Positions 37,077 through 51,654 of a stretch of DNA of 52,007 bases are shown here, one piece after another. A model generated the notes under the pieces. The model searched no databases, was not told where the DNA came from, and saw only the letters and a program-made list of their open reading frames with translations. Both the position numbers and the translations under genes were made by a program. This DNA is from Acidobacteriota bacterium. Lineage in GTDB: Bacteria > Acidobacteriota > Terriglobia > UBA7540. Position 1 is the first letter of the stretch. Each line of letters starts with the position of its first letter. The DNA lies in the NCBI GenBank assembly GCA_902812465.1, contig CADDZE010000027.1:1-52007 (forward strand). The letters run 5' to 3'.

Positions 37077-39251
37077 CTACTCGGCATCGACCACGCAGCG
37101 GAAGCCGATGGCGGCGGAGCGGTCGATGCTCGGCGCCATCAGCAGGTACTTACCGTGCTCGTTCAGCTTGTAGGCCTGCGGGAAGTACCACCCCGAGCCC
37201 TGCGGTTGGTAGTAGCCGCCGCCGCGCACGATGGCCGCGCGCGTGTGTTCGTCCTGATACTCGTCGGTCCACTGCCAAACGTTGCCCGTTAAATCCATGA
37301 CCCCGAACGGACTGGCACCCTTCGGATACGCGTCAACGTCCGTCGGCTCGCGCATGGAACGGCCCGTCTCGGCTGCCGGGACAGCCGAAGCGTCCCATGC
37401 ATTTCCCCACGGATACAGCCGGCCGTCGGTGCCTTGTGCCGCATATTGCCACTCCCACTCATGCGGCAGCCGCTTGCCCGCCCAAGCTGCATAGGCGCGC
37501 GCATCTTCGAGTGACACCCAGACCACTGGCTTCTTCTCCCACCCCGCAGGATATGAACCGCTGTGCCAATGGCGCAGAAAGTTGTGATCATCTTTGGGAT
37601 GGTAGTGCGTTGCGTCCATAAAGCGCTTGAAGTCGGCGTTCGTCACCGGGTAGCGGTCGATGTAAAAGGGCTTGATGCGCATCACGTGCAGGTGATGGCG
37701 GCGGGGAGAGTTCTCCCACGGGTACTGCACATCAACACCGACGTCGTCGCCGCCTTCGATTTCGACGCCCGAAACCTGGAAGCGAAAGTCTGCTTCGGGA
37801 ATCTTTACCATCCCGGGCGGCGCCACCCGAGCAGGCTTGGTCGCAGCCATCTCGACGAGGCGCTGGGGCAGAAAATGCCATTCGTGGGAGAAACTCTGGA
37901 GCGGCGTCTTAGCCAACTCGCGCATCTCTACTAGCAATTGCTTCTCCTTCGCGCCGAGAGTGCGTGTGGCCAGCAACGCGCCGAAGCCCTTGGGCTCGAG
38001 GTCGAAACGGAGGATAGCTGTTCCGCCTTCAATCGTTGGGGCCAGCTCGGTGCCATGCCACACGTCGTAGTAGTGAAGGCCCGCCTGATGTGAAACCTGA
38101 ATCTGGGGACCCGTCACGGCGAATTCATTGCGGTTGACGATGGTCCAGAGCGTCTGCGTGGCACCGGGCCATTTGCTGGCAAACACCCCGTAGCGCAGCG
38201 TCGGCGTGTGCGGTTCCCAGCCAGAGCTCACCAGGAGGTCGGCAAACGCCCGCTCGATCTTTGCCACCCGGCGCAGCGCCTCCGCGTCACGCGGCGTGAT
38301 TGGATTCCAGATGCCCCAGATATTCTCCCAGCTCTCGTAGCCGACACCATTGAAGAAAGCGTACTGCAGGTTGTCGGTCTTGTCGCGATTCCAGCGGTCG
38401 CAGACGTTCACCATGTGGCGCGTTTCGAGCCACTTGTAGCGGCTGATCATGGGCACGAACGGATACTTCCAGTAGCCCCAGGTCAGGTTGTTCCAGGCGA
38501 CGGCTTCGTCCGGCGGGCCGCCCTCTGGCTCAAGGGCGAGGGGATGACGCGTGCGGTCCGAAGCCAGGCGAAAGGCGCGCGGGATGCCGTCCAGTGTGTC
38601 GCCGTTGATGCCGTCGGCGCCGATTTCCGCCATGGCCTGTGCCGTCGCCTCCCAGTTGGGCAATCCCGGATCGCGGGTGCCTTGGTCCCAGACCATCACC
38701 GGAAAGAGCACCCGCACGCCACGGCGGTGGAAATCCGCGATCATCTGGCGGAGGCCCGCGAGACCGCCCGGCATATCGTGCAGCAGATCGTATTGATTGC
38801 GGTCGTCCACGCCGATATTCGGGTAGGTATGCCAAATGAGCACCGAGTCGATACCGCCGTACCGCTTGTCAAGATCGTCGAGATACCGGTCCACAGTGTA
38901 GCGGCCCGCCAGCGGATCATAGAAATACCGGTCATGGATCATCATTTGCGGCTGAATGAAACTGGATTGCGTCCAGCGGAGCTCCGGGCGGCCGTACTCG
39001 GAGCCGTCGTAGCCGATGCGGATCAGCCGCTCTCGCCGCCAGTGGGTGATGTCCGCCAGCCACTCGCGAAACGCCTCGGCCGTCGGATGGTCTTGATCCG
39101 CCCTCCAACAGCAATGGCTATCGCCTTCGACGGCCGGACCCGGTATCTGCTCGCCCTGCGGGGGATACTTGGTGTCCTGGGCCCATACGCAAGTGAAGCA
39201 AAGAAATACCGACACCAGGTGGCAAGCCAGCTTCAGTTTAGGCATAGTCAT
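37077..39251 (-). CDS. Exported glycosidase-like / SUMF1 (formylglycine-generating-enzyme-like) fusion
   Basis: A 724-residue exported protein (signal KLACHLVSVFLCFTCVWA). The N-terminal 480 residues look like a (beta/alpha)-barrel with a C-terminal beta domain: SVLIWHTYPNIGVDDRNQYD, GVRVLFPVMVWDQGTRD, GADGINGDTLDGIPRAF, TLWTIVNRNE. I cannot assign a GH family. Residues of about 500-720 form a SUMF1/FGE-sulfatase domain: KPFYIDRYPVTNADFKRFMD, WVSLEDARAYAAWAGKRLPHEWEWQYAAQG, DLTGNVWQWTDEY, AIVRGGGYYQP. The redox cysteines that follow the RGG segment in true FGE are absent. It lies 150 bases after the TonB receptor gene on the same strand. Confidence 0.75.
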   Translation of the reverse strand: MTMPKLKLACHLVSVFLCFTCVWAQDTKYPPQGEQIPGPAVEGDSHCCWRADQDHPTAEAFREWLADITHWRRERLIRIGYDGSEYGRPELRWTQSSFIQPQMMIHDRYFYDPLAGRYTVDRYLDDLDKRYGGIDSVLIWHTYPNIGVDDRNQYDLLHDMPGGLAGLRQMIADFHRRGVRVLFPVMVWDQGTRDPGLPNWEATAQAMAEIGADGINGDTLDGIPRAFRLASDRTRHPLALEPEGGPPDEAVAWNNLTWGYWKYPFVPMISRYKWLETRHMVNVCDRWNRDKTDNLQYAFFNGVGYESWENIWGIWNPITPRDAEALRRVAKIERAFADLLVSSGWEPHTPTLRYGVFASKWPGATQTLWTIVNRNEFAVTGPQIQVSHQAGLHYYDVWHGTELAPTIEGGTAILRFDLEPKGFGALLATRTLGAKEKQLLVEMRELAKTPLQSFSHEWHFLPQRLVEMAATKPARVAPPGMVKIPEADFRFQVSGVEIEGGDDVGVDVQYPWENSPRRHHLHVMRIKPFYIDRYPVTNADFKRFMDATHYHPKDDHNFLRHWHSGSYPAGWEKKPVVWVSLEDARAYAAWAGKRLPHEWEWQYAAQGTDGRLYPWGNAWDASAVPAAETGRSMREPTDVDAYPKGASPFGVMDLTGNVWQWTDEYQDEHTRAAIVRGGGYYQPQGSGWYFPQAYKLNEHGKYLLMAPSIDRSAAIGFRCVVDAE

Positions 39252-42880: not shown

Positions 42881-44488
42881 TCAGCGGCGGGCTTCGATAC
42901 GGGGCCGCTGCTCCTCCTTTACCTTTTCCTCTTCGCGTTCGGCGGCGAACTCCTCCAGAAGTTGCCGGCCTTGGTCTCTTCGTCCCGTTCTCAGGTAAAG
43001 CCGTCCCAGTTCGTACTTGGCGGAGGGGTGGCGGGGATCGTGCGCCAGGCACTTGAGCAAGTTTTCCTCCGCTGCTTTGGAATCGGTCTTCAGATACAGC
43101 TTCGCGAGCTGAAAGTATGAGTCGGCGAAATCTGGATTCAACCGGATAGCCCGGTCAAGCTCATCGGTTGCCCGTGCCAAGAGGGTAGGCGTCAACCCTT
43201 GGCGCTCGCCCAACTGCACGATCAAGTTTCCTAGGTAGTAGTGCATGTAGTAGTTCTGTGGGAAGCGGGCAAGCGCGGCGGTGAGCGTTTCGATGGCCTC
43301 GTGAAGGTGTCCATCATGCGATTGAGTGACGGCCAAGCTCAGCAAGGCCTCGCTGTTCTCCGGCTGAAGTGCCGCAGCGCGCCGCAAGACCCTTTCGGCC
43401 TCAGCCCTGCGGCCCAGCTTATCTAACACCGCACCCCGCTGGACCATCAGTCGATAGGACCTAGGGACGCGACTGAGGCCAACCTCAGCAACTTCCAATG
43501 CCAGTGGGTAATTTCCGTAATCAAGGCATAGCGTGCTGTAATCCAGATAGTTTTCTTCTCGTTCAGGCGCGAGTTCTGCCGCCTGGCGCAGAGACTGCAC
43601 GGCTAGCGCAAGGTCCCCGACTCTCTCGGCCATGTGCGCGAGGAGATTCAAGGAGTCCGCGTGGGGCTCCCTTGCCGTCACCAACTCGAGCACCTTCAGC
43701 GCCTCAGCAGTGCGTCCCATGCGGCTCAGGATCACGGCCCGCTGCTCATCAAGGCTGGGCAGGGCGGGGTCCTTCTGGCGGGCGCGCTCGATCATCTCGA
43801 GCGCCTTGGAGTAATGGCCGCAATCCGCATAAAGCCGACTCGCCTCCAAGTAGTCAGCGGCAGCCACCCCTGGGGCCTCGCTCAAACGATCGAGCACTGG
43901 CCAGCACCTTTCGGGACGGCCGAGCGCCAACAGCGATTGGCTCAGAGCAAGGATCGCTTGCGGGTAGTGGAACACCACGTCCCCCGACTTTTCGAAGTGG
44001 GCTGCTGCCTCCGCATACTGGTGACGGCGAGCCGAGAGGATGCCAAGGAACAGGTGGGCCACGGGCTGGCTGGCACCATCTTGGGCAAGCTGCTCGAACT
44101 CACGGCGTGCCAGATCGAACCGCCCGGTTTTAAAGTACTCCAACGCCAAGTTCTTACGCGCCGGCACAAATCTCGGGTCGCCGGCAAGCACCCGAAGAAA
44201 ACACCGCTCAGCCTGCTGGCTATCGCCCATCAGGCTATAAGTGGCTCCAAGTGCGTTGAGCAGAATTCGGTTCGACGGGTCGCTGCGAAGACCCTGCTGG
44301 AAGGCGGTGAGGGCCGCCTGTAGGCGGCCTTCCTGAACCAGCCCCATGCCGGCCTTGTAGGACTGCTCGGCCTGAATCCTACCAGATACTCCCGAATTCT
44401 GGGCTGAAGCCGTGGCAACTAGCGCGGCACCGAGGAGGAGGCCCGCAAGGGGTGCCGTTGACGGTTGGGACCGGGTCACGGGATACAT
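42881..44488 (-). CDS. Secreted TPR protein paired with TonB receptor 1
   Basis: A 535-residue exported protein (signal LAGLLLGAALVATASAQ). It is made almost wholly of TPR units (about 13), e.g. NRILLNALGATYSLMGDSQQAERCFLRVLA, FVPARKNLALEYFKTGRFDLARREFEQLA, FADSYFQLAKLYLKTDSKAAEENLLKCLA. It ends with a charged tail rich in E, K and R. ATG 44488 is preceded by GGAAG; a longer frame to 44539 would run through the operator. It is the first gene behind the TTGACA promoter and the LacI-type operator. Its position before the receptor gene suggests a partner role such as substrate capture or receptor assembly. Confidence 0.85.
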   Translation of the reverse strand: MYPVTRSQPSTAPLAGLLLGAALVATASAQNSGVSGRIQAEQSYKAGMGLVQEGRLQAALTAFQQGLRSDPSNRILLNALGATYSLMGDSQQAERCFLRVLAGDPRFVPARKNLALEYFKTGRFDLARREFEQLAQDGASQPVAHLFLGILSARRHQYAEAAAHFEKSGDVVFHYPQAILALSQSLLALGRPERCWPVLDRLSEAPGVAAADYLEASRLYADCGHYSKALEMIERARQKDPALPSLDEQRAVILSRMGRTAEALKVLELVTAREPHADSLNLLAHMAERVGDLALAVQSLRQAAELAPEREENYLDYSTLCLDYGNYPLALEVAEVGLSRVPRSYRLMVQRGAVLDKLGRRAEAERVLRRAAALQPENSEALLSLAVTQSHDGHLHEAIETLTAALARFPQNYYMHYYLGNLIVQLGERQGLTPTLLARATDELDRAIRLNPDFADSYFQLAKLYLKTDSKAAEENLLKCLAHDPRHPSAKYELGRLYLRTGRRDQGRQLLEEFAAEREEEKVKEEQRPRIEARR

Positions 44489-44514
44489 GGACAAGCTTCC
44501 AGCCGCCCAATGAA

Positions 44515-44526
44515 TGAATCGATTCA
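44515..44526. promoter_or_regulatory. LacI-family operator candidate
   Basis: TGAATCGATTCA is a perfect 12-bp palindrome with the central CG typical of LacI/GalR/CcpA-family sites. It lies 27 bases before the TPR ATG and about 10-20 bases after the predicted transcription start, a classical position for repression by blocking RNA polymerase. The divergent gene at 44828 encodes a LacI-family regulator. Confidence 0.75.
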
Positions 44527-44542
44527 AAATTGGCTCCACGCT

Positions 44543-44570
44543 TTTACATCCGGTGCATCGGGCTTGTCAA
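44543..44570 (-). promoter_or_regulatory. Promoter of the TPR-TonB receptor operon
   Basis: On the minus strand, a perfect -35 TTGACA (44570-44565) and TGTAAA (44548-44543, 4/6) are separated by 16 bases; GTAAAA with 17 bases is an alternative -10. The start would fall near 44536, just before the palindrome at 44515-44526. Confidence 0.65.
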
Positions 44571-44827: not shown

Positions 44828-45877
44828 ATGGCCACGGTGAAGGAAGTGGCGGCGCGGGCCGAAGTATCGGTGGGGACGGTTTCGAACGTCTTAAGCGGTG
44901 CCGCGCGCGTCAGCTGTGCCCGCCGCGAGCGCGTGCTGGCAGCGATTCGCGAGCTCGGGTATCAGCCCAACCACATCGCGCGCAGCCTCAAGCTTCGCCA
45001 GACGATGACGCTCGGGATGATCGTGTCCGATATCACCAATCCTTTTTTCTCCCAGCTGGTGCGGGGGGCCGAGGAGGCGGCCCTCGAGGCGAACTACCTG
45101 CTGCTGACCTTCAATACTGATGACCACGTTGATCGCGAGAAGCAGGTCCTTGCCGTGCTCCGGGCCAGGCGCGTGGATGGAATCCTGCTGGTGGTGGCGC
45201 CCGCCCCTAACAGCGACTACGCCCACGTCAACGAGACCATCGAGATGCGAACGCCAGTGGTTTGCCTTGATCGCGTGCCGCCCGGGATCAAAGTGGACTC
45301 GGTGACGGTCGATAACGTCGCGGCCGCCAGGCGCTGCGTGCAGCACCTGCTGGAGAGGGGTCACCGGCGGATCGGCATCATCACCGGCTCTCCGCTGCTT
45401 GAGACGGCCCGTCAGCGGTTGCTAGGGTATCGCAAGGCTCTGGCCGAAGCCGGCATCCCGTTCGATTCGGGGCTGGTGCGGCAGGGCGATTTCCGGACCA
45501 GAAGCGGCTACCAGCTTGGCCGTGAACTTCTGGCGAGCACCCGGCGCCCCACGGCCGTCTTCGTTTCCAACGGTCTCATGGCGATCGGCCTCTTGAAAGC
45601 CGTGGAAGAGTTGGGCCTCCAATGTCCTCGAGATGTGGCTATCGCCACTTTTGATGACATGCCGTGGGCGGAAGGGTTTCGGCCGCACCTGACCACGGTC
45701 GCGCAGCCCGCTTACGAAATGGGCTATCGTGGCGCGAAGCTGCTCATGCAACGCATCGCCTCGCGCGAAACGGCCGCGCCGCCCACGAAAATACGCCTCC
45801 ACGCCGAGCTCAAAATTGCGGAATCGACCAGCCTCCCACTGCGGGCCAGAGGCCTCCGGCACACACTGAGAGCTTAG
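44828..45877 (+). CDS. LacI-family transcriptional regulator
   Basis: A 349-residue DNA-binding regulator. The N-terminal helix-turn-helix is MATVKEVAARAEVSVGTVSNVLSG and the hinge helix YQPNHIARSLK (about 44-54) fits a family that bends DNA at a central CG. A periplasmic-binding-like effector domain follows (TLGMIVSDITNPFFSQLVRGAEE, VDGILLVVAPA, RPTAVFVSNGLMAIGLLKAVEELG, RDVAIATFDDMPWAEGFRPHLTTVAQP), typical of sugar-responsive members. ATG 44828 follows AGGAG; the frame runs on to 44768 but the HTH fixes the start. The likely target is the divergent TPR-TonB receptor operon. Confidence 0.92.
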   Translation: MATVKEVAARAEVSVGTVSNVLSGAARVSCARRERVLAAIRELGYQPNHIARSLKLRQTMTLGMIVSDITNPFFSQLVRGAEEAALEANYLLLTFNTDDHVDREKQVLAVLRARRVDGILLVVAPAPNSDYAHVNETIEMRTPVVCLDRVPPGIKVDSVTVDNVAAARRCVQHLLERGHRRIGIITGSPLLETARQRLLGYRKALAEAGIPFDSGLVRQGDFRTRSGYQLGRELLASTRRPTAVFVSNGLMAIGLLKAVEELGLQCPRDVAIATFDDMPWAEGFRPHLTTVAQPAYEMGYRGAKLLMQRIASRETAAPPTKIRLHAELKIAESTSLPLRARGLRHTLRA

Positions 45878-46159: not shown

Positions 46160-47581
46160 ATGCGCAAGCTGGCTGCCATCGCCCTCTGTGTCTGGGGTCT
46201 GAGCCTTGTCAGTCAGCGCGGCCAGGCGATGAGCGATCCACTTCCTGCCCTGCCCACCATTAATGTCGCCGATTTTCGTCCCGAAGTGCGGGCCCAGCTT
46301 CAGGAAGCATACCAGGCGGCGCAGCAGCATCCCGCCAGTGCTGCGGCCGTTGGCAAGCTGGCGATGTTGATGGACGTCTACGACCGCCCCGGCCCCGCCG
46401 AGACGTGCTACGAGCGAGCTCACCGGCTCGACCCTGCTTCGTTCCGGTGGCTTTACGATCTTGGGTCGCTCCTGGCCAGGCAACGAAGGCGCGCGGCGGT
46501 AGACGTACTGCGGGCAGCGCTCCAGCTTCAGCCCGGCTACCTCCCAGCGCGGCTCAAGCTGGCTGACGCCCTCCTTGCCGCCGGCGACCTCGACGCCAGC
46601 GCGGTGGAGTACTCCGCCATAGCCAGGCAGTTTCCTGACGCGGCTGAGGCCTATTACGGGCTGGGACGCATCAGCGTGGCGCGCGGCCAAACCGAAGCTG
46701 CGGCTGAATACTTCCGCAAGGCGTGCGACCTTTTTCCCTCCTACGGTGCGGCACACTACGCCCTGGCGCAGGCGGAACGCCAGCTCGGGCGAAGCGCGGA
46801 AGCCGCGCAGCAACTCGCCTTGGCTGAAAAACACAAGAGTCTGGTGCCCCCGGTCAACGATCCTTTGCGTGACGAGCTGCGGGAGCTCGACCAGTCGGCT
46901 CCCTCTCACCTCGAGCGCGGTGTCCAGCTCGAGCAGGCCGGCCGCTTGCCGGACGCTATCGCCGAGCACGAGCGGGCTCTTCAGCTTGACCCTACGCTGG
47001 TGCAGGCCCACGTGAACCTCATAGCCCTCTATGGGCGAAGCGGGCAGCCGGCCAAAGCCGAGGAGCATTACCGGGCGGTGCTGAAGCTGAATCCGGAGCA
47101 GTTTCCCAAGGCCCACTATGACTACGGCGTGCTGCTCATGCAAAACCGCCACTATGCCGAAGCCGAACAGGCCTTCCGCCGGGCCATCCAGGCCGATCCC
47201 TCCTATGCCGAAGCCCATAACAACCTGGGCGTGCTCCTCGAGCGCCAGGGGCGCCTGGCCGAGGCTACCAGCGAGTTCCAGAAGGCTCTTCAAATCCAGC
47301 CCAGCTATCGCCAAGCGCACTTTAACTTGGGCAGGATATGGGTGAACCAAGGGCGATACCCGGAGGCGATCGGGGAATTTCAGAAGACTCTTTCACCCGT
47401 CGATGATCAAACGCCAGCATACCTTTATGCCTTGGGAGCCACTTACGGGCGCGCCGGTAACCGCCAGAAGGCCTTCTACTACCTCGAGGAGGCTCGCCGC
47501 GAGGCGTCAGCCCGCCGGCAGACAGGCCTCGTGGCCAGCATCGACGCCGACCTGCGCAGCTTCGAGCATGCTCAACCTTGA
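46160..47581 (+). CDS. Secreted TPR protein paired with TonB receptor 2
   Basis: A 473-residue exported protein (signal MRKLAAIALCVWGLSLVSQRGQA). About ten TPR units follow, interrupted near residue 235 by a linker (KSLVPPVNDPLRDELRELDQSAPS). Good units are LVQAHVNLIALYGRSGQPAKAEEHYRAVL and YAEAHNNLGVLLERQGRLAEATSEFQKAL. There is no Shine-Dalgarno; TAAAAT (46148-46153) ends six bases before the ATG, so the mRNA may be leaderless. It precedes the second TonB receptor gene by 314 bases on the same strand, the same gene order as in the other TPR-receptor pair. Confidence 0.85.
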   Translation: MRKLAAIALCVWGLSLVSQRGQAMSDPLPALPTINVADFRPEVRAQLQEAYQAAQQHPASAAAVGKLAMLMDVYDRPGPAETCYERAHRLDPASFRWLYDLGSLLARQRRRAAVDVLRAALQLQPGYLPARLKLADALLAAGDLDASAVEYSAIARQFPDAAEAYYGLGRISVARGQTEAAAEYFRKACDLFPSYGAAHYALAQAERQLGRSAEAAQQLALAEKHKSLVPPVNDPLRDELRELDQSAPSHLERGVQLEQAGRLPDAIAEHERALQLDPTLVQAHVNLIALYGRSGQPAKAEEHYRAVLKLNPEQFPKAHYDYGVLLMQNRHYAEAEQAFRRAIQADPSYAEAHNNLGVLLERQGRLAEATSEFQKALQIQPSYRQAHFNLGRIWVNQGRYPEAIGEFQKTLSPVDDQTPAYLYALGATYGRAGNRQKAFYYLEEARREASARRQTGLVASIDADLRSFEHAQP

Positions 47582-47895
47582 CCGCAATCGTTGAGAACGA
47601 AGGTTGACTTTCTACCACTTTGTGTATATGAAATTTGGAATCTGCCGGTATGGCTTTAAATTGGGCCCATTACAATTACTACAAGCGACGCTTTTTCAGC
47701 AATTTATACTAATTCAAGTTTGGTCTGACTCTTGCTAATTTGCCTAGGAACGTTGTACCGTGCGTTTTGCGGCATCTCCGGTGCCTCAGGGCACTTGCCA
47801 TGCCGCCATAGGAAGAGGGAAGCCGAGGCATAACTTTTACGGGCCATCGGGCTCGCGATCCAAATTTTTTGACCCTCCCGAAAGGAGCGTTCGCC
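47582..47895. other. AT-rich spacer before TonB receptor 2
   Basis: The 314 bases hold no gene. The first half is clearly more AT-rich than the surroundings, with TATACT (47705-47710) as a -10 candidate but no fitting -35. No copy of the TGAATCGATTCA palindrome is present, so this receptor may not share the control of receptor 1. Confidence 0.5.
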
Positions 47896-50800
47896 ATGAC
47901 GGGGATTAGCCGGAGAATCTGCCAGTCAACCGCGTGGGCTCTAGGTCTCATGGTGCTCTGTGCCACTGCCGTTTTCAGCCAAGGTAGCGGCACCATTAAA
48001 GGCATCGTCACCGATCCCACGGGAGCTGTGGTGCCCAACGCCGTGGTGACGGTCACCAACCAGGCGACGGGGGCGAAAGTGACGACGAGGACCACCGGAG
48101 CCGGTCTCTACGAGGTCACCTCGTTGATCCCTGGAATTTACACCGTCGAAATATCGGCGCCCGGGTTTCGCAACTATGCCAATCGCGGCGTCACCTTGAC
48201 GACGGATCAGGTGCTGGGCATCAATGCGACCCTGGAGGTAGGTTCCTCGACGCAGACCGTAACCGTGGAGGCGGCAGCGCCACTGGTGAACACGGAGGAA
48301 GGCCGAATGTCGGCTCTGGTCACCGGCTCCGAGGTGAAGAACCTGCCTCTGAACGGGCGCAATATTTACCAACTGATGCAGCTCGTTCCGGGCGCCGTCA
48401 ATTCGACTTCTGTCGACTTCGAAGCGGGAACGGGCGGTATCCAGACCAACATTAACGGCGCGCGCGCCAACTTCAATGGCTTCCTGTTTGACGGCGTTTC
48501 CAACAAGGGGCTGAGCGGCGGCTCGAACGCGCAACCAGCGCCCGATTTCGTACAGGAATTCCGCATCGAAACCAACAACTTTGACGCCCAGTACTCGAAT
48601 TCGGCCGGCTCCATCACCGATGTCAGCAGCAAGTCCGGCGGCAATGAGTTTCACGGCGACCTTTGGGAATTCTTCCGCAACGACAAGTTGAACGCCCGGA
48701 ACTTCTTTGACGGCGCCACCAAGTCCGAGTGGCGGCTGAACCAATTCGGTGGCACCCTTGGGGGGCCCATCAAGCGGGACAAGCTCTTCTTCTTCGGCGG
48801 TTACGAAGGCGAACGCTTCCGCACCGCGGCGCCCTTCCTGCAGTTCACTGAGAGTCCGGAGTTCCGGAACGCCGTCGAGACCACTAACCCCAATTCCGTG
48901 GCCGCGCTTCTTTACAAGACTTTTCCTGGACCCGCTCCCGTCAGCCAACTCAGCACGGTCGATACGATCGTCAATAACAACGTCAGTGGCGGCGATATCG
49001 GCGCTACGATCGGTGCTCCTTACGCGCTTGGCACCCTGCTGAGTGACGCCTACCTCGGTTACACCGATCCTTGCTTCCTCAGCAGCTTTGTAGGAATCGG
49101 CAGCCCCGCGGGCGTGCCTAGCCTGCCTAATGTGACCTGGGGTAACCCACAAGCGTTTGCGAACGAGGCGGCAAAATTGTTCGGGGTTACACCAGCGGAG
49201 AACGCACAGATTGCGGCCAATATTGCCGCCGGCTGCCCGGGGTCTGGCTTCGTCGCCCCGCCGGTGCAAGCGGGAGCCATTTCGCGTTCCGCGATCATGA
49301 ACGGGTACGTGAACGCGGCCGGCTCCACCCGGGCTAAGGGGGTCTTCTACAACGGCGATCAGTACATCGTCCGCCTGGATTACCAGGGCGAGAAGACCCG
49401 GATGTTCGGCCGCTTCTACTTCCTGCTGCAGAAGAACCCCAACGTCTCGCCCGTCACCGGCATCCGTGGGTTCACCGCTCCGGCTTCGTCCTCCTCCCCG
49501 GGTGCGGCCTATAGCTTTGTCCACTCGTTCACGCCCACGGTGGTGAATACATTTCACGCTGGTTTCACGCGCGGCCAGTCGGCCGTCACGCCCACCAAAT
49601 CGCAGTTTGGTGTGCCCAACATCAGCTTTGACACGGGCGAGCCCAGCTTCGGGGCTTATAACGGCTATCCGCAGTTCTTCAACGAAGATGTCTTTAACTT
49701 TCGCGACATGGTGACCATGGTCAAGGGTACGCACTCCCTCAAAGTGGGAGGCGAGTTCAAGCGCAACTATGAAAACAGCGAGTTTGACGTAGGACGCCCC
49801 AGCTACAGCTTTGCGGACCCGGTCTTTTTCGCCAACGACCTGCCCTACCTGGAGGCAGCGGGGGTAAACCCCGAGCTGACCTCGGGAAAAGCATCGCATA
49901 TCGACACCAACATTCGCGCTTGGCGCAACTATGAGGTGGGATGGTTCGTGCAGGACGATTGGAAGGTGAAGAAGAACCTCACTCTGAACCTGGGACTGCG
50001 CTGGGACTTCTTCAGCCCCCATACGGAGAAGTACCACCACGCCACCCGGTTCGTTTTCGGCCCCGGCAGCAATCCTATAGCCCGGCTCGCCAGTATTAAC
50101 TGCCAAGCGTTCATTGGCTCCAACTGCCTGGCCCCGGCGGGCGACACATTTACCCCGAACGGTGGCTTCACCACCGCACCGTCCCTCTTCCCTGCTCATT
50201 ACAAGAACTTCGCGCCACGCTTCGGCTTCGCCTGGGATCCCTTCGGGAATGGCAAGACTGCGATCCGTGGCGGAGCGGCCATCTCTTATGAAGCCAGCTT
50301 CTACAATGCTCTGTCGAATTCCCGCTGGAACCTTCCGTTCTATGCGTTTAACGAGGCCTGCCCGGTCTTCTGCGGCGTCCCGGGTTTGCCCACTTACGGG
50401 CCCACCAGCGCCAATGGCACTCCAACGGGGGCAGCCCCCACGTTCAGCGGCCCGCCCGATAACGTCGGACAAGGGCCTGCGGGAGCGGGGTTTGCCGGCA
50501 ACATCATGGGATGGCTCTCGGCTAATCCCAACGTCGCCTCGCTCACGGGTATTCCGAGCCCCACCTATCAGCTTCCCTACATCGAGCAATTCTTCTTCGG
50601 CATTCAGCGTGAGTTGACTCCCTCCACCGTGCTGGAGATTAATGGCGTGGGCACGCTCTCGCGCCACCTGTTCTGGGCTGAGGACCCGAACCGCGTGGTG
50701 GGCGGAAAACAGCGGCCCGCCGGTACAGTCTTCAATCCTTGCACTGGCACGTATGCCAGCGGCTCGCCTCCGCAAGTCAATCCGTGCTTTGGCCATCTTC

Positions 50801-51654
50801 GCACCTGGGAGACGAGTGTCAACTCCAGCTACGAAGGCCTTCAGGTTAGCCTTACGCGCAAGTTCAGCCGGGGGCTGGCCTTCACGACGAACTACACTTA
50901 CAGCCATTCGATTGACTTGCGCTCCACTTGGCATGGCTTGAGCAGTGGGGGCTCGGCAACGGACTCCAACGCCGTGGGCGAGTCGGGCTATTCGTATGAC
51001 CCGAACGCCCTCTATCTGGAACGGGCAAGTTCCCTGTTTGATATCCGCCACCGCGTGGTGGGCGATGTCCAATGGGAGTTTCCATGGCTCAAATCCCAAC
51101 GGGGTTTGACCGGACACATACTGGGAGGCTGGACAATTAACACCGCCGTCAGCCTCCAGACTGGTTTCCCGTTCACGGTTGGCGCTCGGAAAGACTTCAA
51201 TGGCGACGGTGTTCGGTCCGACCGGCCCAATACACCCAGCTTCGGTAACTTCAAGTACTTCAATTCGACTGATTTCGAGGCGGGCTCCGGCCCCAAGGGA
51301 TTGAGCGTGATGCAAGCTCTGGGCCCCGCCAATCCGAATGCCACTTGCGCTACGGCCAACACAACCGGCTGCATGGGGGTATTCCCCATCCCAGCTCCGG
51401 GTACCGTAGGCAATCTCGGGCGCAACACCTTCCGAGGACCGGGCTTTGCCGAGACGGATATGTCGCTGTTTAAGCACATCCCCATCGGCTCCAGCGAGGC
51501 CCGCTACCTCGAGTTCCGGGCTGAGTTCTTTAATATCTTCAATCGCACCAACCTCAATCCGCCCGTCGCGAATCTCAGCGATGGCAGCTTCGGACTAGCG
51601 ACCAGCGCCGCTGACCCGCGCGAGATTCAGTTCGGGCTGAAGCTCTACTTCTAG
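47896..51654 (+). CDS. Oar-like TonB-dependent outer-membrane receptor 2
   Basis: A 1252-residue receptor. A signal peptide (STAWALGLMVLCATAVFSQ) is followed by a carboxypeptidase-regulatory-like domain (about 27-110, GTIKGIVTDPTGAVVPNAVVTV), a plug (MSALVTGSEVKNLPLNGRNIYQLMQLVPGA ... FDGVSNKGLSGGSNAQPAPDFVQEFRIETNNFDAQYSNSAG) and a very large barrel ending QFGLKLYF. ATG 47896 follows AAAGGAG; an upstream in-frame start at 47869 has none. The ligand is unknown; this family imports polysaccharide fragments, peptides or chelates. A good terminator follows, so it ends its transcript. Confidence 0.9.
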   Translation: MTGISRRICQSTAWALGLMVLCATAVFSQGSGTIKGIVTDPTGAVVPNAVVTVTNQATGAKVTTRTTGAGLYEVTSLIPGIYTVEISAPGFRNYANRGVTLTTDQVLGINATLEVGSSTQTVTVEAAAPLVNTEEGRMSALVTGSEVKNLPLNGRNIYQLMQLVPGAVNSTSVDFEAGTGGIQTNINGARANFNGFLFDGVSNKGLSGGSNAQPAPDFVQEFRIETNNFDAQYSNSAGSITDVSSKSGGNEFHGDLWEFFRNDKLNARNFFDGATKSEWRLNQFGGTLGGPIKRDKLFFFGGYEGERFRTAAPFLQFTESPEFRNAVETTNPNSVAALLYKTFPGPAPVSQLSTVDTIVNNNVSGGDIGATIGAPYALGTLLSDAYLGYTDPCFLSSFVGIGSPAGVPSLPNVTWGNPQAFANEAAKLFGVTPAENAQIAANIAAGCPGSGFVAPPVQAGAISRSAIMNGYVNAAGSTRAKGVFYNGDQYIVRLDYQGEKTRMFGRFYFLLQKNPNVSPVTGIRGFTAPASSSSPGAAYSFVHSFTPTVVNTFHAGFTRGQSAVTPTKSQFGVPNISFDTGEPSFGAYNGYPQFFNEDVFNFRDMVTMVKGTHSLKVGGEFKRNYENSEFDVGRPSYSFADPVFFANDLPYLEAAGVNPELTSGKASHIDTNIRAWRNYEVGWFVQDDWKVKKNLTLNLGLRWDFFSPHTEKYHHATRFVFGPGSNPIARLASINCQAFIGSNCLAPAGDTFTPNGGFTTAPSLFPAHYKNFAPRFGFAWDPFGNGKTAIRGGAAISYEASFYNALSNSRWNLPFYAFNEACPVFCGVPGLPTYGPTSANGTPTGAAPTFSGPPDNVGQGPAGAGFAGNIMGWLSANPNVASLTGIPSPTYQLPYIEQFFFGIQRELTPSTVLEINGVGTLSRHLFWAEDPNRVVGGKQRPAGTVFNPCTGTYASGSPPQVNPCFGHLRTWETSVNSSYEGLQVSLTRKFSRGLAFTTNYTYSHSIDLRSTWHGLSSGGSATDSNAVGESGYSYDPNALYLERASSLFDIRHRVVGDVQWEFPWLKSQRGLTGHILGGWTINTAVSLQTGFPFTVGARKDFNGDGVRSDRPNTPSFGNFKYFNSTDFEAGSGPKGLSVMQALGPANPNATCATANTTGCMGVFPIPAPGTVGNLGRNTFRGPGFAETDMSLFKHIPIGSSEARYLEFRAEFFNIFNRTNLNPPVANLSDGSFGLATSAADPREIQFGLKLYF

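Follow-up and report, generated by a model that had tools for sequence, protein, structure and literature searches.

The Rus locus of Bacteroides thetaiotaomicron brings together nucleoside and ADP-ribosyl hydrolases, a SusC/SusD pair and a regulator of a different type from the one considered here. Where PMC12596196 deals with this ribose-scavenging locus (RusR), it describes RusT as a putative ribose transporter. In the LacI-family regulons surveyed by Ravcheev et al. in 2014, operators are even palindromes with a central CG that lie near a start codon and exert local control (PMC4052901); the main text of that survey contains no occurrence of Acidobacteria. The operator of Escherichia coli Cra (FruR) has the consensus TGAAACGTTTCA with the core TGAAWCGWTTCA (PMC11157272, Table 1). 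A published code relating helix residues to operator bases applies to TVSR-type helices (PMC2978694), and the residues through which RbsB contacts ribose have been listed (PMC2630998). Our literature search found no paper on the regulon described below in Acidobacteria.

We analyzed a stretch of 52,007 nt (the window), in which a LacI-family gene and a TonB receptor operon flank a palindrome and its promoter:

44828 to 45877, plus strand: P0001, LacI-family repressor with an RbsR-like ribose pocket (Pfam LacI helix-turn-helix and Peripla_BP_3)
44565 to 44570, minus strand: -35 element TTGACA (6/6), which recurs in perfect form in orthologous promoters
44541 to 44546, minus strand: -10 element TAAAAG (4/6) after an 18-bp spacer; relatives have similarly weak -10 elements
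44515 to 44526, no strand assigned: predicted operator TGAATCGATTCA, conserved in orthologous loci
44496 to 44500, minus strand: putative ribosome-binding site GGAAG, read from the sequence
42881 to 44488, minus strand: P0002, TPR protein, first gene of the operon, with a syntenic orthologue behind an operator in L109/L044
39402 to 42740, minus strand: P0003, TonB-dependent Oar-like receptor (CarboxypepD_reg and OMP_b-brl_4 domains), exact start uncertain
37077 to 39251, minus strand: P0004, third gene of the operon, about 470 residues of no recognised family fused to an FGE-sulfatase domain

An earlier note on this DNA had described a perfect 12-bp palindrome with a central CG just downstream of a TTGACA promoter with a 4/6 -10 element, and a LacI-family regulator encoded divergently. 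We found the palindrome at 44515-44526 and the promoter on the minus strand, with the regulator at 44828-45877 on the plus strand; what the note described and where it placed it proved accurate to one base. TGAATCGATTCA lies 14 bp past TAAAAG and, as had been said, just before the TPR start, although we counted 26 bases to the ATG (44488-44486) rather than 27; with its even length, its central CG and a centre ~32 bp 5' of the ATG, it has the features of LacI-family operators set out in PMC4052901. The "TPR-TonB receptor operon" of the same note does contain both genes, but its third gene, at 37077-39251, had been overlooked, as had the lack of an operator in the promoter of the window's own lacI, upstream of which a matrix scan found no second operator (best score, -4.1). 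We also observed an outer inverted repeat, CCAAT ... ATTGG at 44507-44533, that flanks TGAATCGATTCA with unequal spacing; no such repeat was seen around those operators of relatives that were inspected.

A standard strict promoter scan reported no promoter, because its rule requires T as the last base of the -10 element, and promoters were therefore compared by hand. Of the 12 target operators in relatives, 7 have a perfect TTGACA no more than 60 bp upstream (0.1 expected), and most operators of relatives overlap a sigma-70-like promoter or sit just downstream of one. Judged from sequence, the arrangement of operator and promoter is that of steric repression of initiation.

The first protein of the operon, P0002, has a signal-peptide-like start, and the receptor P0003 has an orthologue in L044 that is 68% identical. 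P0004 is present in 23 of the 61 genomes searched and is repeatedly linked to this LacI gene, with orthologues at the LacI-linked loci L041, L043, L044, L115 and L142. Its N-terminal ~470 residues gave neither a Pfam match nor a credible sequence match in the PDB, and a structure prediction from 5 sequences was unusable (mean pLDDT, 41); P0004 is possibly a new enzyme. Immediately beyond the LacI gene, the plus strand carries a second pair of genes for a TPR protein and an Oar-like TonB receptor (46160-51654), for which a matrix scan of the window found no operator-like site.

Exact searches found a single copy of TGAATCGATTCA in the window and in the 3,916,882-base genome. Near matches with up to two mismatches in the window were unremarkable (2 found, 1.3 expected), so that the window alone is no proof of function, which comparison has to supply. 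Scored with a weight matrix built without the window, position 44515 reached 24.5, inside the 19.1-25.0 span covered by the training sites, and the runner-up in the 52 kb was far below it at 12.1. Elsewhere the genome has four sites with one mismatch, two of which (C12:23319 and C36:34400) lie within open reading frames or at their edges, and no ribose-type gene was recognised near either.

Orthologues of P0001 occur in four genomes of the family (65-70% identity) and, at 47-70%, in named Acidobacteriota that belong chiefly to Bryobacterales, Solibacter and Terriglobia. We compared 19 orthologue loci (290 kb) with 62 loci that carry other LacI genes (1.13 Mb), using statistics in which bases were taken as independent. 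Exact TGAAWCGWTTCA was found at 14 sites in 9 of the 19 orthologue loci, against 0.023 expected, and at none of the 62 non-orthologous loci or the loci of the four LacI paralogues in the window's genome. Allowing one mismatch raised the count to 29 sites in 15 of the 19 orthologue loci, where shuffles gave 0.2, and to 14 sites in the 62 others, where the corresponding figure was 5.2. When all perfect 12-bp palindromes were ranked by enrichment with no motif preset, TGAATCGATTCA came first (5 loci) and TGAAACGTTTCA second (3 loci). Only one-mismatch sites are present at L107/L041, the closest of the orthologue loci (70% identity), and no site was found at the orthologue loci L117, L120, L121 and L122. 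A functionless palindrome arising by chance, a reading that can appeal to the near matches expected in any single window, is scarcely credible in the face of this excess beside orthologues and of the conserved promoter placement, and the comparison of orthologue with other LacI loci led us to reject it.

The sites at orthologous loci precede lacI, TPR/TonB operons and genes for ribokinase, nucleoside hydrolase and ADP-ribosylglycohydrolase. In L108, L109, L042, L110 and L119 the site is ahead of lacI itself, making autoregulation likely there. The conservation check that had been proposed for the palindrome thus came out in its favor: the core is kept near orthologous regulators, as is the -35 element, while the flanks vary. 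The contention that regulator, operator and target can be linked from sequence also held.

It is very unlikely that the palindrome is bound by some other LacI-family regulator, such as a Cra-like protein, and that the adjoining lacI gene is incidental. The site tracks P0001 orthologues, often within their own promoters, even though TGAATCGATTCA agrees with the operator of E. coli Cra, for which PMC11157272 (Table 1) gives TGAAACGTTTCA as the consensus and TGAATCGTTTCA as a natural site, and the palindrome also turns up in relatives that have no P0001 orthologue. In the window's genome, the four LacI paralogues have no site beside them, and none of the four, when aligned, combines V15, G16 and N20 as P0001 does. 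The genomes G039, G052, G059 and G024 each hold 5-6 exact TGAAWCGWTTCA sites and no P0001 relative detected at 1e-20; other LacI proteins may therefore use the same operator, and one may do so in these four genomes.

P0001 itself is a LacI-family member by every feature tested. It joins an N-terminal LacI helix-turn-helix (PF00356, 58 bits) to a C-terminal periplasmic-binding-protein-like domain (PF13377, 124 bits), both above cut-off; its predicted model resembles CcpA, PurR and RbsR (Z, 32-34), and among solved sequences E. coli RbsR comes nearest (E, 8e-59). In a tree, E. coli RbsR is neither sister nor orthologue of P0001, and a branch with support of 100/94 places all the site-bearing regulators to one side. 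Against the RbsR equivalogs of NCBIfam, P0001 scored 231 bits where 531 are required (NF007743) and 239 where 382 are (NF047341), so we say that it works like RbsR, not that it is RbsR; the Cra/FruR equivalog NF008452 likewise gave 149.8 bits against a cut-off of 385. The code of PMC2978694 was left unapplied because the helix of P0001 is TVSN and the code is for TVSR.

In an alignment with E. coli RbsB and RbsR, the ten RbsB residues that contact ribose (N13, F15, F16, D89, R90, R141, F164, N190, D215 and Q235) are all identical in P0001. The full set is likewise present in 17 of 18 orthologues and in 4 of 4 further homologues; it is found in none of the four paralogues of this genome and, among other LacI proteins, in 2 of 25 and 4 of 62. 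E. coli RbsR itself departs at two pocket positions (Y74 and W147). The regulon content of relatives points the same way. Among the products of their loci are ribokinase scoring above its curated cut-off, a RhaT/ureide-permease-like transporter, nucleoside hydrolases and ADP-ribosylglycohydrolases; several of the genes are preceded by an operator, and sugar transporters are found in related loci as well. A Rus-type ribose locus would place ribokinase, nucleoside hydrolase and TonB receptor under one regulator; L097 holds all three and L136 and L041 some of them, a combination that the operon of the window lacks. Together, pocket identity and the regulon content of relatives make ribose the best effector candidate, narrowing the "sugar or glycan fragment" of the earlier note, which was too vague, to a single predicted compound.

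ADP-ribosylglycohydrolase-like proteins adjoin this LacI clade in L116 (3799-5457), L115 (14736-16460) and L112 (8229-9815), a recurrence that suggests that ADP-ribose or ribosides serve as nutrients. In the window's genome we found no ADP-ribosylglycohydrolase, and homologues of ribokinase, nucleoside hydrolase and the transporter, which lie elsewhere in it, have no site within 2 mismatches. As these enzyme genes are scattered and without sites, the link to ribose there rests on the pocket and on the relatives, and the regulon seems to be reduced to the uptake operon.

The operator could be correctly identified and yet the inducer could be something other than free ribose, whether a nucleoside, a different pentose, or a product that is phosphorylated or derived from ADP-ribose. 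We consider this unlikely, if well above the other alternatives. The NCBIfam scores of P0001 for CytR (nucleosides), RbsR and PurR are nearly equal and each below its own cut-off, and the hydrolases at relatives' loci act in the same direction, but the identity of all ten ribose contacts, among them F222, which is rare among other LacI proteins, argues for ribose, and ribokinase in some of the same loci fits free ribose inside the cell.

We therefore favor, with a probability of roughly 80%, a model in which P0001 would block the TPR operon from TGAATCGATTCA and intracellular D-ribose would release it; most likely, the palindrome serves as operator for an RbsR-like repressor that responds to ribose and controls the TPR protein, the TonB receptor and the fused FGE-domain protein. 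Without inducer, a P0001 dimer would occupy TGAATCGATTCA just downstream of the -10 element, at about +8 to +20, and would stop transcription from the TTGACA promoter of the TPR-TonB receptor-FGE-domain operon. Imported ribosides or nucleosides would give intracellular D-ribose, which would enter the periplasmic-binding-protein-like domain of P0001 and cause the repressor to let go, so that the outer-membrane uptake genes would be on when ribose-containing compounds are present. The sequence, the conservation of operator and promoter, the co-occurrence with the regulator clade and the conserved ribose pocket are observations; binding, repression, ribose as the inducer and the receptor's substrate are inferences.

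Oar-like TonB receptors are very numerous in soil Acidobacteria, and their substrates are mostly unknown; the link of operator and pocket to ribose offers a testable substrate class for this receptor and for the uncharacterised FGE-fused P0004. A wider picture is tentative, and we lean toward doubting it: this LacI clade may govern a widespread, undescribed regulon for scavenging ribose or ribonucleosides in Acidobacteriota. Riboside import would fall to Oar-like TonB receptors and TPR proteins, P0004 would be a new enzyme acting on them, and the operator would have converged with that of Cra through a different helix.

Set beside known systems, P0001 is closest to E. coli RbsR, its nearest solved sequence, with which it shares a ribose pocket of largely the same residues and ribokinase at the loci of its relatives; it differs in its place in the tree and in its predicted control of TonB receptor operons rather than of the rbs ABC transporter. 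With E. coli Cra it has in common the 12-bp operator core TGAAWCGWTTCA, whereas the proteins are only 26% identical, their recognition helices differ (SRTTASYV in Cra, SVGTVSNV in P0001), and Cra senses fructose-1-phosphate where the candidate effector of P0001 is ribose; the pair would be a naturally occurring example of one operator read by two LacI-family helices. As in Rus, ribose-linked genes occur together with outer-membrane TonB-type uptake, here with Oar-like receptors, TPR proteins and a LacI repressor instead. Finally, the predicted P0001 operator shares with the regulons of Ravcheev et al. the even palindrome, the central CG, local control and proximity to the start codon, and strong comparative evidence ties it to the adjacent repressor, in what would be a convincing, if ordinary, LacI-type switch, newly placed in soil Acidobacteria.
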